Positions 11,440 through 16,627 of a DNA stretch of 46,442 bases are shown piece by piece. The DNA comes from an uncultured beta proteobacterium. GTDB taxonomy: Bacteria; Pseudomonadota; Gammaproteobacteria; Burkholderiales; Burkholderiaceae. Location of the stretch: positions 1 through 46,442 of the forward strand of contig CAJEZV010000007.1 of assembly GCA_903995005.1 (NCBI GenBank), read 5' to 3'. Below the pieces are notes generated by a model that searched no databases, had not been told where the DNA came from, and worked only from the letters and a program-made list of their open reading frames with translations. A program made the translations under genes and the position numbers. Every line of letters starts with the position of its first letter. Position 1 is the first letter of the stretch.

Positions 11440-11466
11440 TTATTGCAAGCTGGTCATTTTTCTATT

Positions 11467-11509
11467 TGAGAATCATTCTCATTTGATGTTATATTGAGAA
11501 CAATTCTCA
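11467..11509 (+). promoter_or_regulatory. Two tandem Fur-box-like palindromes
   Basis: TGAGAAT-C-ATTCTCA at 11467-11481 (perfect 7-1-7) and TGAGAA-CAA-TTCTCA at 11495-11509, 35 bp upstream of the start codon at 11544; resembles Fur/GATAATGATWATCATTATC class sites. Confidence 0.75.
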
Positions 11510-11543
11510 TTTAGACTTTTTCAACCACTCACCTGATACGACC

Positions 11544-12458
11544 ATGAAAATCACCATCAAAAGACTGATTGCCTTTAGCTTCATCATCGTAAGCGCCCTT
11601 CATTTCTCTTTTGCCAATGCCGGCGAAGGAGTATTCGGCTGGATCTATACGCTAGATCTTCAGCCCAAAGGTAAGTTGGAGTTTGAACAGCGCCTACAGC
11701 TCAATCAACAACAGGCAGCTGGAACTTATGAGGCATGGACTGCTCGATCAGAATTGGAATATGGTTTAAGCAATGATTTACAGGTTGCCGGCTATATCAA
11801 TTCGTATTACACAAATGCCAGTCAGAACTACACCAATCCTGAGGCCTGCGGGGAGGATGCCACCTGTACCGGTGGCTATGCAGTGCCCTCTTCACATGAT
11901 CCAGCCACACCTTACAGAAAGAGTGGCATTGAAGGAGGATCGCTCGAAGCGATTTATAGACTCACCAATCCAGTGACATCACCCGTGGGTATTGGCTTTT
12001 ACCTCGAGCCCACCTGGGGCAGAAATAAAGATGAACTTGAAGCAAGACTTTTATTGCAATCCAACTTTATTGATGACCGTTTAGTGGTTGCTGGCAACGT
12101 TGTAGTAGCAAATGAACGCTTGAAGTTTATTGAGAACGGCAACGTCCCTGAATCTATGCTGGATTTTTTAGTAGGTGCAAGCTACCGCTTTGCGCCAAAG
12201 TGGTCTGCGGGGGTAGAGGCTCGTTTTCATAACGATTACTCAGAACTCAATCTGCGCAACCAAGTACAACGCGCTACCTTTGTGGGTCCTAATATGCACT
12301 ACGCAGCTAAAGACTGGTGGGTAACTGGCGCCTGGCGCTATCAGCTAGCTGGTGGTAACTGTATGGGTGGTGGCGAAGCCGAATGCTCAAACGCTAGGGT
12401 CTGGGATAGTCACACCGTCAATGAATTCATTCTCAAAGTTGGTTTTCCACTGAACTAA
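11544..12458 (+). CDS. Outer-membrane beta-barrel-like protein (DUF6662-like)
   Basis: Signal peptide ending FANA; repeated amphipathic segments (FEQRLQLNQQ, ARSELEYGLSNDLQVAGYINSYY); terminal FILKVGFPLN. Confidence 0.7.
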   Translation: MKITIKRLIAFSFIIVSALHFSFANAGEGVFGWIYTLDLQPKGKLEFEQRLQLNQQQAAGTYEAWTARSELEYGLSNDLQVAGYINSYYTNASQNYTNPEACGEDATCTGGYAVPSSHDPATPYRKSGIEGGSLEAIYRLTNPVTSPVGIGFYLEPTWGRNKDELEARLLLQSNFIDDRLVVAGNVVVANERLKFIENGNVPESMLDFLVGASYRFAPKWSAGVEARFHNDYSELNLRNQVQRATFVGPNMHYAAKDWWVTGAWRYQLAGGNCMGGGEAECSNARVWDSHTVNEFILKVGFPLN

Positions 12459-12473
12459 AGATAGAGACATCAA

Positions 12474-13007
12474 ATGAACTGGAAACCCAACCCTTTTGCA
12501 ATTGTTGGCTTAGCAATGGTAAGCATGCCGATTATTGCTCAGGCAAAAATTTATGTGACAGTGGATCAGGTGCAGAAAATTCTGTTCCCCAATAAGCAAC
12601 TCACAAAAGCCCCCATCATCATTACCGATGATCTCCAAGAAAGAATGCGGGTAGCCTCTAGTATTCGCCACCCCTTTCAAGGAGATCGGATCTGGAAAGC
12701 ATCTGATGGCAGCTGGCTCATTGTTGATGAAGTGGTCGGCAAACACGAAATGATTACCTATGCCGTGGGGATCTCTCCCAACGGAAGTATTTTAGGTATT
12801 GAGATTTTGGAATATGTTGAGTCTTATGGCTATGAGGTAGCAGAAGCTCAGTGGCGCAAACAATTTTTTGGTAAGTCGGCGAAGGACCCTATCAAACTCA
12901 ATCAAGATATCCAGAATATTGGTGGTGCGACCCTTTCTTGTAAACATCTTACCGATGGAGTGAAGCGAGTAGCAGTTTTGTATGACTTAGCTTTAAAGGC
13001 TAAATGA
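12474..13007 (+). CDS. Periplasmic FMN-binding domain protein
   Basis: Signal peptide; GISPNGSILGIEILEYVESYGYEV and NIGGATLSCKHLTDGVKR (FMN-binding/flavinylation-type motif). Confidence 0.82.
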   Translation: MNWKPNPFAIVGLAMVSMPIIAQAKIYVTVDQVQKILFPNKQLTKAPIIITDDLQERMRVASSIRHPFQGDRIWKASDGSWLIVDEVVGKHEMITYAVGISPNGSILGIEILEYVESYGYEVAEAQWRKQFFGKSAKDPIKLNQDIQNIGGATLSCKHLTDGVKRVAVLYDLALKAK

Positions 13008-13822
13008 CCGTCCGCTGCCAAGCCCTTTTGGGAACATTTATAGAAATCACTATCGATCAAGAAGGTGATGAAGCAATCAATAAAGCATTTACTACGGTAG
13101 GGCAAGTTCAACACTTGATGAGTTTTTATGATCCATTAAGTGAGCTCAATCAAATTAATCGCTGGGCTCATCAAGTATCCCTGGTAGTTCACCCCTGGAC
13201 CGCTGAAATCATCAAAATTGCCCAAGAAATTTATCAGCAATCAAATGGCTTATTTAATTGCGGTATTGGGCATCGACTTGTTGTGGCCGGCTTATTACCT
13301 CGCCATCTTGATCTATCTCAATATGAGCTAGGCGGCATAGAAGATATTCACTTTATAGACCCACAAACCTTAAGAGCCTCTAAGCCCGTATGCCTAGATC
13401 TCGGCGGGATTGCCAAAGGGTTTGCAGTCGATAAGGCTGTTGAGAGTTTGCTGGCAAGCGGCATTCAATCGGGCTGCGTGAATGCAGGAGGTGATCTGCG
13501 GGTATTTGGAACAGTAAGGCCAGTGCAAATTCGAAACCCAAGCCGCCCAAACCACTTAATTGATATTGGCTCCCTACAAAATGGGGCTATCGCTACAAGT
13601 GGCTTGTACTTTTCTAATCGCGATCAAGAACAAAGCCATATCATCAACCCCTTTGCAAAAGATGAATCTGATGCACATCTCCATTTCTCAGGCTCGTATT
13701 CCGTCTTAGCGAATGAATGTGTCTATGCAGACGCCCTTACCAAGGTACTTGCACTCTCAGGCCTGCAAGATCATGCTTGCTTTACCCACTTTTCAGCCAA
13801 GACCATCAAGATTGCCGCATGA
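13004..13822 (+). CDS. apbE: FAD:protein FMN transferase (ApbE family)
   Basis: LLGTFIEI N-terminus; LDLGGIAKGFAVDKAVESLLASGIQSGCVNAGGDLRVFG; ATSGLYF; starts in ATGA overlap with previous stop. Confidence 0.93.
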   Translation: MTVRCQALLGTFIEITIDQEGDEAINKAFTTVGQVQHLMSFYDPLSELNQINRWAHQVSLVVHPWTAEIIKIAQEIYQQSNGLFNCGIGHRLVVAGLLPRHLDLSQYELGGIEDIHFIDPQTLRASKPVCLDLGGIAKGFAVDKAVESLLASGIQSGCVNAGGDLRVFGTVRPVQIRNPSRPNHLIDIGSLQNGAIATSGLYFSNRDQEQSHIINPFAKDESDAHLHFSGSYSVLANECVYADALTKVLALSGLQDHACFTHFSAKTIKIAA

Positions 13823-14259
13823 GTCGCTTAGGAAAAATGCCTAGCTGGCAAAGATCATTTGTCGTAATCAGCATGCTTGCTTGCTCAATGAGTGGGAGCC
13901 TATATTTACTTGGCCATGAGTTTCAGGTTCAAAGATCAGCTTTAGGAAATCACCATATTCTGGCTGTGCATGGAGTCTTGGCGATGATCGCGATCCTTGC
14001 TCTAGGCTCAGTTCTGCCGTTTCACCTGAAGGCTGGACTTAAATCTAAAAAGAAATGGTTCAGTGGATTTGGCCAGCTGAGTTTCTTAGTGGCATTACTG
14101 TTTACCGGAGCCTTACTGTATTACGGGCCTGTAGAAATTCGTGAAGGCGTAGTGATGACCCATTGGGTTCTGGGAGTTTTATTTTTTATCGTTTTCCTAT
14201 TCCATTCACTTTTGCCACTAAACATTAGACTTACCGACAAACAAAAAGGGATGCCCTAG
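13819..14259 (+). CDS. Small His-rich 4-TM membrane protein (cytochrome b561/DUF4405-like, putative heme-binding)
   Basis: ATG at 13819 overlaps apbE stop (ATGA); four hydrophobic segments with conserved-looking His: GHEF, HHILAVHG, FHLKAG, THWVLG, FHSLL. The supplied ORF start 13717 is upstream of the likely start. Confidence 0.65.
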   Translation: MSRLGKMPSWQRSFVVISMLACSMSGSLYLLGHEFQVQRSALGNHHILAVHGVLAMIAILALGSVLPFHLKAGLKSKKKWFSGFGQLSFLVALLFTGALLYYGPVEIREGVVMTHWVLGVLFFIVFLFHSLLPLNIRLTDKQKGMP

Positions 14260-14266
14260 GCATCCC
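14248..14266 (-). terminator. Terminator hairpin overlapping end of convergent membrane-protein gene
   Basis: GGGATGCC-cta-GGCATCCC; on the minus strand followed by TTTTTGTTTG, i.e. a minus-strand U tract. Confidence 0.75.
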
Positions 14267-14287
14267 TCTGACAAAGCTCTACTACTT

Positions 14288-14500
14288 TTACTTACTGCAA
14301 GAACCCTTATTGCAAGATGTGCCACAAGAGTTGATACCCAACAAAGGATAGGCTGGGCAGAAACGAAATAATCCTGTTGCCAAAGGAATGAACCCTAACC
14401 ATCCCCACATCCCAATCATATTGGTAGCAGTAAGCACCACCAATAATGCGCCTACTGAAATTCTTAAAATACGGTCAATACCGCCGACGTTACATTCCAT
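14288..14500 (-). CDS. DUF2892 (YgaP-like inner membrane) protein, likely start MECNVGGIDR
   Basis: MECNVGGIDRILRISVGALLVVL...FCPAYPLLGINSC pattern of DUF2892. Confidence 0.9.
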   Translation of the reverse strand: MECNVGGIDRILRISVGALLVVLTATNMIGMWGWLGFIPLATGLFRFCPAYPLLGINSCGTSCNKGSCSK

Positions 14501-14539
14501 AGTAAATCCCTTCTTTTGATAAAACATTCACCAAATCGT

Positions 14540-14857
14540 TTACTTCTTGCAAAAGTGCTTATATAGCAAGCCCATAACTGCTACTGCTACCTGACTGGCA
14601 AGCGTGTAGTAAATTTGTTTTCCATCTCTACGAGTCTTCACTAACTTTTCTTTTCGTAACACTGTTAGCTGTTGTGAGAGTGTTGGTTGATGAATATCTA
14701 GAGCAGACTCTAGCTCACCAACACATTTTTCACCTTGGGCAATCTCACACAAGAGCATCATGCGATCTCGGTTTGAAAGGACTTTCATGAGTTTGCAAGC
14801 ATCTTCCGCAGAAGCCTGCATTTTTTTGAGTTCTGCTTTTGAAATCAGCATCTTCAT
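14540..14857 (-). CDS. bigR: ArsR/SmtB family regulator, BigR/SqrR-like (persulfide sensing)
   Basis: wHTH core HQPTLSQQLTVLRKEKLVKTRRDGKQIYYTL; Cys in LLCEIAQGEKC and C-terminal HFCKK; adjacent to persulfide-dioxygenase-like MBL gene. Confidence 0.8.
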   Translation of the reverse strand: MKMLISKAELKKMQASAEDACKLMKVLSNRDRMMLLCEIAQGEKCVGELESALDIHQPTLSQQLTVLRKEKLVKTRRDGKQIYYTLASQVAVAVMGLLYKHFCKK

Positions 14858-14858
14858 A

Positions 14859-15731
14859 TCAGATAGTATTCAGTGGGATTTTGAGATAGGACTTACCATT
14901 CGCCTCAGGCTCAGGAAAATGGCCCGCACGAATATTGACCTGGATCGATGGCAGGATCAGATGAGGCACGTCTAAAGTAGCATCGCGCTTACTACGCATT
15001 TGTACAAATGCATCTTCCGTAATGCCATCATGCACATGAATATTGCTTTGCTTTTCTTTGCCCACAGTAGTTAGATGAGCTACTGGTCGATTAGTTGGTG
15101 GGTAATCGTGGCACATATAAAGCTTGGTTTCATGAGGATAGGCTAAGATTTTCTGAATCGATTGATATAAAGCCTTAGCATCTCCACCTGGGAAATCACA
15201 GCGTGCTGTGCCAACATCCGGCATAAATAAGGTATCACCTACAAATAAGACATCACCAATCTCATAGGCCATACAAGCTGGGGTGTGACCCGGGACATAT
15301 ATTGCCTTTAAAGATAGGTCACCAAAAGTCAGTGATTCACCATCACTCAGTAAGTGATCAAACTGCGAGCCATCAACTACAAAGCGCTCATCTAAATTGA
15401 AGATTCCCTTAAAAACATTCTGCACATGAGTAATGTGATCACCAATCACAATCTTACCGCCAAGCTTGCTTTGTAAATACGGGGCGGCTGTGAGATGGTC
15501 TGCATGCGCGTGGGTTTCCAATATCCAGACTAGCTGTAACTTTTTCCCAGTAATAAATTGAACGACCTCATCTGCAGATTTAGTGGTAGTTCGACCCGAC
15601 TTAGAGTCATAGTTCAGAACAGAGTCAATCACTACACAAGCACTACCCTCACCCGCATACACTACATAGGTAAAAGTCCAGGTTTCTGGATCAAAAAAGG
15701 CTTTAATGTCAGCGTTTACTTTTGGGTTCAC
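14859..15731 (-). CDS. blh: MBL-fold metallo-hydrolase, Blh/persulfide dioxygenase (ETHE1)-like
   Basis: ETHAHADHLTAAPYL, PGHTPACMAYEIGDVLFVGDTLFMPDVGTARCDFPGGDA, CHDYPP motifs. Confidence 0.9.
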   Translation of the reverse strand: MNPKVNADIKAFFDPETWTFTYVVYAGEGSACVVIDSVLNYDSKSGRTTTKSADEVVQFITGKKLQLVWILETHAHADHLTAAPYLQSKLGGKIVIGDHITHVQNVFKGIFNLDERFVVDGSQFDHLLSDGESLTFGDLSLKAIYVPGHTPACMAYEIGDVLFVGDTLFMPDVGTARCDFPGGDAKALYQSIQKILAYPHETKLYMCHDYPPTNRPVAHLTTVGKEKQSNIHVHDGITEDAFVQMRSKRDATLDVPHLILPSIQVNIRAGHFPEPEANGKSYLKIPLNTI

Positions 15732-15762
15732 AATGGTCTTCCTATGATTGCACTAGGTAATT

Positions 15763-15782
15763 AATATATATATTTATATATT
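15763..15782. promoter_or_regulatory. AT-rich palindrome, candidate BigR operator in divergent promoter region
   Basis: AATATATA-TATT-TATATATT perfect 8-4-8 inverted repeat between divergently transcribed blh and tauE/safE-like genes. Confidence 0.65.
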
Positions 15783-15805
15783 ATCTTAATATAAAATAAA
15801 TTGCA

Positions 15806-16627
15806 ATGGATTACTCAATATTGATCAGCCCGGCCCTAGGGATACTTGTAGGCTTTCTCATGGGACTTACAGGGGCTGGTGGCGGGATTTTGTCTGTCCC
15901 ATTACTCGTTTTTGCCCTGCACTTATCGGTAGCAGAGGCTGCGCCGATCGCTTTATCTGCCATAGCACTTGCTGCTGGCGGTGGCGCACTATTGGGACTG
16001 AAAAACAAAACATTGAGATACAAGGCTGCTGGGTTTATGGCGACCTTTGGATTGCTGCTATCGCCAGTAGGCCTTTGGTTGGCTCAACGAGTGCCCAATA
16101 GCCCGCTATTAATTCTTTTTAGCTGCACGCTCTTTTATTCTGCCATCAATCTATACAGACAATCTAGTAGAGAAATTTTGGGTACTGCTGATGTAAATAG
16201 AAAACCTCCACCATGTTTATTGAATCCCTCCATTGGCAAGCTGGCCTGGAATATTCCCTGTGCAAGAGCTCTAATGCTATCGGGTGGTTTAGCAGGATTT
16301 CTATCTGGGCTTCTGGGTGTTGGGGGTGGCTTTGTCATTGTTCCTGCACTCAAGCGCTATACCGATCTACCGGTGCAACCTATTGTTGCTACCTCATTAG
16401 GGGTGCTCGCTGTAATCTCAACTGGTAGCGCTGTATTTTCTGCTGCTGCCGGCAATCTTGATCTACTCGTTGCAGTGCCATTCTCCTTAGGTGCTCTGGG
16501 CGGCCTTTTGCTTGGTGGATCCTTGGGGAAAAAAATCAGTGGGCCACGGTTACAGCAGATTTTTGCAGTGCTAACGTTTGTAGTAGCTATTAGCCTCATG
16601 GTCAAGGGCATCAAAAGCTACTACTAA
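15806..16627 (+). CDS. Sulfite exporter TauE/SafE family protein
   Basis: GFLMGLTGAGGGILSVPLLVFALHL and duplicated GFLSGLLGVGGGFVIVPAL motifs. Confidence 0.93.
   Translation: MDYSILISPALGILVGFLMGLTGAGGGILSVPLLVFALHLSVAEAAPIALSAIALAAGGGALLGLKNKTLRYKAAGFMATFGLLLSPVGLWLAQRVPNSPLLILFSCTLFYSAINLYRQSSREILGTADVNRKPPPCLLNPSIGKLAWNIPCARALMLSGGLAGFLSGLLGVGGGFVIVPALKRYTDLPVQPIVATSLGVLAVISTGSAVFSAAAGNLDLLVAVPFSLGALGGLLLGGSLGKKISGPRLQQIFAVLTFVVAISLMVKGIKSYY

Follow-up and report, generated by a model that had tools for sequence, protein, structure and literature searches.

A Fur-box-preceded flavinylation operon with a DUF6662 barrel in Polynucleobacter: a candidate assimilatory ferric reductase

The operon described here occupies positions 11467-14259 of the window, i.e., of the whole stretch of 46,442 nucleotides that was analyzed, and belongs to a genome of the freshwater bacterium Polynucleobacter. 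It comprises four tightly packed genes on the plus strand (Table 1), whose positions and common direction agree with the initial annotation of this DNA. The two 4-bp ATGA overlaps noted there were also found, whereas the first intergenic gap measures 15 bp rather than the 16 bp given. A search of the open literature, with subscription papers outside its scope, returned no description of DUF6662 or of the combination of barrel, FMN_bind, ApbE and four-transmembrane-helix (4-TM) protein. The adjoining region (14288-16627) encodes a YgaP-like TM protein, a BigR-like ArsR repressor, a Blh-like sulfur dioxygenase and a TauE-family exporter (matches below NCBIfam cut-offs) and is probably a sulfide/persulfide detoxification island.

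Table 1. Coordinates of the genes and sequence features of the operon (positions in the window)
Feature	Position	Strand	Evidence
Sigma-70-type promoter, TTGAGA-18-TATATT	11466-11495	+	TATATT invariant in 13 aligned promoters
Fur box 1, TGAGAATCATTCTCA	11467-11481	.	Perfect 7-1-7 palindrome, overlaps the -35 element
Fur box 2, TGAGAACAATTCTCA	11495-11509	.	One mismatch, starts at the end of the -10 element
Outer-membrane beta-barrel, DUF6662	11544-12458	+	Pfam, AlphaFold, PDB folds, conservation
Exported FMN_bind protein, predicted covalent flavoprotein	12474-13007	+	Pfam, RnfG/NqrC relatives in PDB, conservation
Flavinylation motif GGAT, predicted FMN-bearing Thr153 (codon 12930-12932)	12921-12935	+	Motif conservation
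ApbE FAD:protein FMN transferase, no signal peptide	13004-13822	+	Pfam, PDB relatives, N-termini
4-TM protein, predicted di-heme b-type cytochrome	13819-14259	+	Histidine conservation, model, Pfam matches of relatives
Codons of His51, His69, His115 and His129 in the 4-TM gene	13969, 14023, 14161, 14203	+	

Comparison with Pfam placed the products of the first three genes above the curated cut-offs for DUF6662, FMN_bind and ApbE, as had been proposed, whereas the 4-TM protein matched DUF4405 only weakly. The barrel protein is a member of DUF6662 (PF20367; 3.4e-13, 50.2 bits, cut-off 27). It carries a signal peptide at about residues 1-26 and two conserved cysteines near its C-terminus, its AlphaFold model contains 12 strands (pLDDT 84.9), and in related loci it is as conserved as the flavoprotein. 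The FMN_bind domain was recognized in the second product at 2e-10. This protein contains the sequence IGGATLSC at residues 149-156; 143 of 151 relatives retain the pattern [SGTA]GAT, and the threonine is invariant in the alignment. An FMN_bind protein with an [S/T]GA[S/T]-like motif and apbE lie in one gene cluster, a combination characteristic of flavinylation-associated extracytosolic electron transfer (Meheust/Huang). Judged by crude hydropathy and inspection, the hydrophobic N-terminus of the FMN protein, which ends in AQA before KIY, marks it as an exported substrate. The signal peptide begins with a conserved MxWxP (12474-12494; W3 and P5 in >90% of the alignment), which is unusual for a signal peptide, although part of this conservation may reflect the search pattern used.

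The ApbE domain (2.4e-42) is complete by profile and has relatives in the PDB (8e-33). Neither a signal peptide nor a lipobox was found in the window protein or most of its relatives, the domain beginning about seven residues after the initial methionine, and a search of the window for an in-frame upstream start codon returned none. The protein thus has the domain of a typical exported ApbE lipoprotein but not its signal, a point overlooked in the initial annotation. From its N-terminus the ApbE of the cassette looks cytosolic, while its substrate appears to be exported. Cytosolic ApbEs that act on cytosolic substrates are known (PMC12052999). In one relative (locus L128) the FMN protein bears a Tat-like RRQFIK signal that would fit flavinylation before export in the folded state; as a general answer the Tat route was rejected, since a convincing signal of this kind occurs in that relative only.

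The 4-TM protein falls below the Pfam cut-off for DUF4405 (PF14358; 0.013, 16.4 versus 26.7 bits). A weak match to this family occurs in 11 of 32 relatives, and relatives also match cytochrome b561 (8.9e-11). The model of the window protein (pLDDT 89.3) has four helices and not the six of DUF4405, but the four membrane histidines characteristic of that family are present: His51, His69, His115 and His129 are conserved at 99-100% in 145 sequences. Two of them, His51 and His69, reside on TM2 and the other two on TM4, and their placement, judged from sequence and helix boundaries, would suit the ligation of two hemes, one close to each face of the membrane. The description of the protein as histidine-rich was an overstatement, the protein containing seven histidines in all, the four conserved ones included. 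A Foldseek search with the model returned no significant match; among the PDB matches listed, Escherichia coli superoxide oxidase (5oc0) had the highest TM-score (0.62), with an E-value of 4.2. On this fold, and on the b561 matches of the relatives, one might build the view that the protein passes electrons from superoxide to quinone in a response to oxidative stress. We consider this highly improbable: besides the insignificant E-value, such a function would leave the FMN protein and ApbE without a purpose, and the genomic context described below is one of iron and not of oxidative stress. The prediction of a membrane heme protein and a flavinylated carrier, as initially proposed, is supported by the conserved histidines and the flavinylation motif. 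In two loci of one genus (L227, L229) the 4-TM gene occurs without an adjoining FMN or ApbE match; in L227 a DUF1924 protein is encoded upstream, and the gene upstream in L229 is nearly identical.

The two tandem Fur-like palindromes reported upstream of the operon are present and bracket the promoter. Dinucleotide shuffles of the window yielded a mean of 0.25 such sites by chance, and Fur box 1 is the sole perfect match across the 1.66-Mb assembly. Both boxes and TATATT are kept across Polynucleobacter relatives while the surrounding bases vary. In sister genomes the 15-mer palindrome, with one mismatch at most, also occurs upstream of feoA-feoB, of the gene for the FTR1 permease, of tonB with a TonB-dependent receptor gene, and of genes for a HiPIP and a solute-binding protein. 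Because this gene set has the make-up of a Fur regulon, we take the palindrome as a Fur box; it is a 7-1-7 palindrome that lies over the promoter and is common to known iron genes, as expected of a member of such a regulon. The E. coli-style 19-mer consensus has no match in the genome, and the 7-1-7 form fits instead. Fur-like sites upstream of cassettes in other genera are mixed, being good in some loci (e.g., L088, L091, L098) and weak, absent or not above chance elsewhere. Control of the cassette by Fur, as put forward in the initial annotation, is therefore well supported by sequence within Polynucleobacter, through the motif, its overlap with the promoter and its sharing with feoAB, FTR1 and tonB, but unproven outside this genus.

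Lack of co-occurrence in relatives had been named in the initial annotation as a finding that would speak against the operon; the genes do occur together. Of 80 loci retrieved with the FMN protein, 74 preserve all four genes in the same order and the remaining six are truncated by contig ends; the cassette is present in 61 of the 81 Polynucleobacter genomes sampled, i.e., about three quarters. A phylum-wide sample contained matches to the FMN protein in 15 of 399 genomes, and ten loci outside the genus (L127-L136) were fetched from it and scored by profile. Six of them (L127-L132) show barrel, FMN, ApbE and 4-TM genes in this order, and two (L133, L134) show FMN-ApbE-4TM with no barrel recognized by profile. 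The last two are distant variants in which a Porin_O_P barrel and an FMN_bind protein occur with PepSY (L135) or with FTR1, a NapH-like ferredoxin and a b561-like protein (L136). Cassette modules, and the four-gene order itself, also occur in other proteobacterial classes. The 4-TM protein was detected in 63 of 399 Burkholderiales genomes sampled (29 of 158 genera), and among 53 Burkholderiales loci tallied for its neighbors, 50 have an FMN gene, 44 have apbE and 33 have an adjacent barrel of the DUF6662 or Porin_O_P-type-related kind. It follows that FMN-ApbE-4TM forms the core, whereas the barrel is frequent but interchangeable: it is a swappable outer-membrane module drawn from DUF6662 or from a second, Porin_O_P-type-related porin family. 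The DUF6662 barrel noted in the initial annotation is confirmed, but its assignment as the outer-membrane partner is at best plausible, because the barrel is replaced or absent in some lineages.

Individual genomes depart from the general pattern. The cassette of Polynucleobacter necessarius PPGSP2 (L069) has an in-frame stop codon in both the barrel and the FMN gene, so that the operon looks inactivated in that lineage. Some Polynucleobacter carry two cassettes (second copies L189 and L190 in genomes G572 and G544), one of which adjoins a divergent ferritin-like gene. In five larger-genome Polynucleobacter (L181-L184 and L186; G539, G551, G559, G576, G609) a divergent cassette is followed by an HbpS-like gene; no 4-TM gene was found between the two in G539 and G559.

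The iron-related role proposed earlier gained support from gene neighborhoods in several lineages. In a Dechloromonas MAG feoB starts about 45 bp downstream of the 4-TM gene, in an Azonexaceae genome one further ORF separates the cassette from feoB, two further genera show cassette-feoA-feoB and cassette-feoB, respectively, and in another genus feoAB is convergent with the cassette. FTR1 lies upstream of the cassette in one to two lineages outside Polynucleobacter, and ferritin-like genes adjoin it in other loci. By a rough Poisson estimate, five FeoB neighbors would arise by chance with a probability of about 1.6e-4, or 0.014 if counted as three independent events; many relatives have no iron gene nearby. 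Among 67 complete Polynucleobacter genomes, 41 contain both the cassette and FeoB, 12 the cassette only, one FeoB only and 13 neither. The cassette thus occurs in 41 of 42 FeoB carriers versus 12 of 25 FeoB-less genomes (Fisher 2e-6), a figure we did not take at face value: on a single-gene tree (der, 58 genomes) the cassette changes about five times and FeoB 11 times, and independent contrasts point in the same direction by about 3 to 0. Since these are too few for significance, the near-nesting of FeoB within cassette carriers is suggestive only. The assembly that contains the window is only 80% complete, and no FeoB was detected in it. Polynucleobacter asymbioticus induced feoAB about 4-fold when grown in cultures that were interpreted as iron-limited; ferrous uptake alone was recognized in this organism (PMC6629928). 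The text of a Herbaspirillum iron RNA-seq paper does not mention genes of the kind described here.

Fur control would be explained equally well if the operon spared iron, with the flavin carrier replacing a periplasmic cytochrome c or HiPIP on the way to another extracytosolic reductase or respiratory branch and no iron being reduced; the palindrome upstream of the HiPIP gene fits this explanation, and flavinylation has been proposed to be advantageous in iron-poor settings (Meheust et al., PMC8238504). We nevertheless regard it as rather unlikely, for the 4-TM partner is predicted to need two hemes itself, the linkage to feoB, FTR1 and ferritin in unrelated lineages points to iron traffic, and the cassette has no other terminal reductase as a conserved neighbor. 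Iron traffic could also mean reduction of ferric siderophores or heme that TonB receptors import into the periplasm, as for PepSY/FoxB, in which case the barrel would stand outside the electron flow. Polynucleobacter genomes mostly encode 3-6 TonB-dependent receptors, the PepSY/HiuB systems provide precedents (PMC13001220), and the HbpS-like genes for heme degradation after divergent cassettes agree with such a role, but no TonB receptor lies consistently beside the cassette as feoB, FTR1 and barrels do, and the barrel equals the flavoprotein in conservation. An explanation along these lines is unlikely in our view.

Taken as a whole, the operon is a real, conserved and iron-linked variant of flavinylation-associated extracytosolic electron transfer. 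We propose, with a probability of roughly 0.6, that it encodes a flavinylation-based assimilatory ferric reductase under repression by Fur, an idea supported by the adjacency of the cassette to feoB/feoAB, FTR1 and ferritin genes in unrelated relatives. When iron is short, Fur would leave the promoter and the operon would be expressed. The FMN_bind protein would receive FMN from ApbE at its Thr153 and would act at the periplasmic surface of the inner membrane or farther out. The 4-TM protein, with two putative b hemes held between TM2 and TM4, would take electrons from quinol or from a donor in the cytosol, bring them to the periplasmic side and hand them to the FMN protein, which would reduce Fe(III), most likely in ferric complexes that pass through the DUF6662 barrel or are encountered there. 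The resulting Fe(II) could be taken up by FeoB, an FTR1-type permease or another transporter. The role of the barrel is the least certain part; it may serve as a pore through which ferric chelates or reduced iron enter, or hold the flavoprotein at the outer membrane. A bolder version, in which barrel and flavinylated FMN_bind protein together conduct electrons across the outer membrane without cytochrome c, seems doubtful to us; if true, it would be a flavin counterpart of porin-cytochrome complexes and would allow Fe(III) to be reduced at the cell surface in oxic, humic-rich freshwater, with Fe(II) passing to FeoB. The source of Fe(II) for FeoB is a question in many aerobic Gram-negative bacteria, and a ferric-reducing cassette would be a compact, genetically testable candidate. 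It would also give DUF6662 and a small, unnamed family of cytochromes a function and extend flavinylation-based electron transfer by a component in the outer membrane, beyond the descriptions cited here.

Several known systems resemble parts of this arrangement. The FMN protein shares with RnfG/NqrC the FMN_bind domain and, by prediction, its flavinylated threonine and is their distant sequence match among PDB relatives, but it lies far below the NCBIfam curated cut-offs (rnfG 23.9 versus 102 bits, nqrC 10.5 versus 144), and the cassette is devoid of Rnf/Nqr subunits. The 12-strand fold of the barrel resembles the COG4313 channel (4rl8) and FapF (5o65), with TM-scores of 0.56-0.57; a search for a sequence relationship to these proteins found none, and their gene contexts differ. 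MtrCAB-type porin-cytochrome conduits combine an inner-membrane donor, a periplasmic carrier and an outer-membrane barrel in one operon, as is predicted here, whereas the cassette is without a multiheme c cytochrome and its 12-strand barrel shows no sign of enclosing a redox protein. The DUF4405/FezC cytochromes (Huang et al. 2024, PMC11334425) are also small membrane proteins with four conserved histidines encoded beside apbE, for which binding of heme b has been shown (PMC11334425, PMC10979944), and they serve in flavinylated electron transfer, the role predicted for the 4-TM protein. They have six helices instead of the four predicted here, the window protein scores below the cut-off of their family, and the cassette differs in its partners, FMN_bind and an outer-membrane barrel, and in its Fur control; that paper makes no mention of a porin or of FeoB. 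A further parallel is the Caulobacter operon CC_3059-3063 (CCNA_03155-03159) for DUF2271, DUF4198, ApbE and PepSY proteins, which is Fur-repressed and strongly induced by iron limitation (PMC3751524) and whose mutants are EDTA-sensitive (PMC12004947). PepSY stands there in place of the 4-TM protein and DUF2271 in place of FMN_bind, DUF4198 is additional, and an outer-membrane barrel is not reported; a "Transporter" of this locus was considered as a barrel and rejected, since a later paper describes the locus as a PepSY system, and no barrel was seen at a DUF2271 locus in another genome examined. Fur-type control, an inner-membrane heme protein, an exported flavinylated protein and ApbE are common to both systems, in the cassette as predictions from sequence, and the Caulobacter operon has been implicated in periplasmic ferric reduction (PMC3751524, PMC12004947, PMC8238504), the function proposed here, so that by analogy it provides an independent precedent and the nearest experimental parallel.
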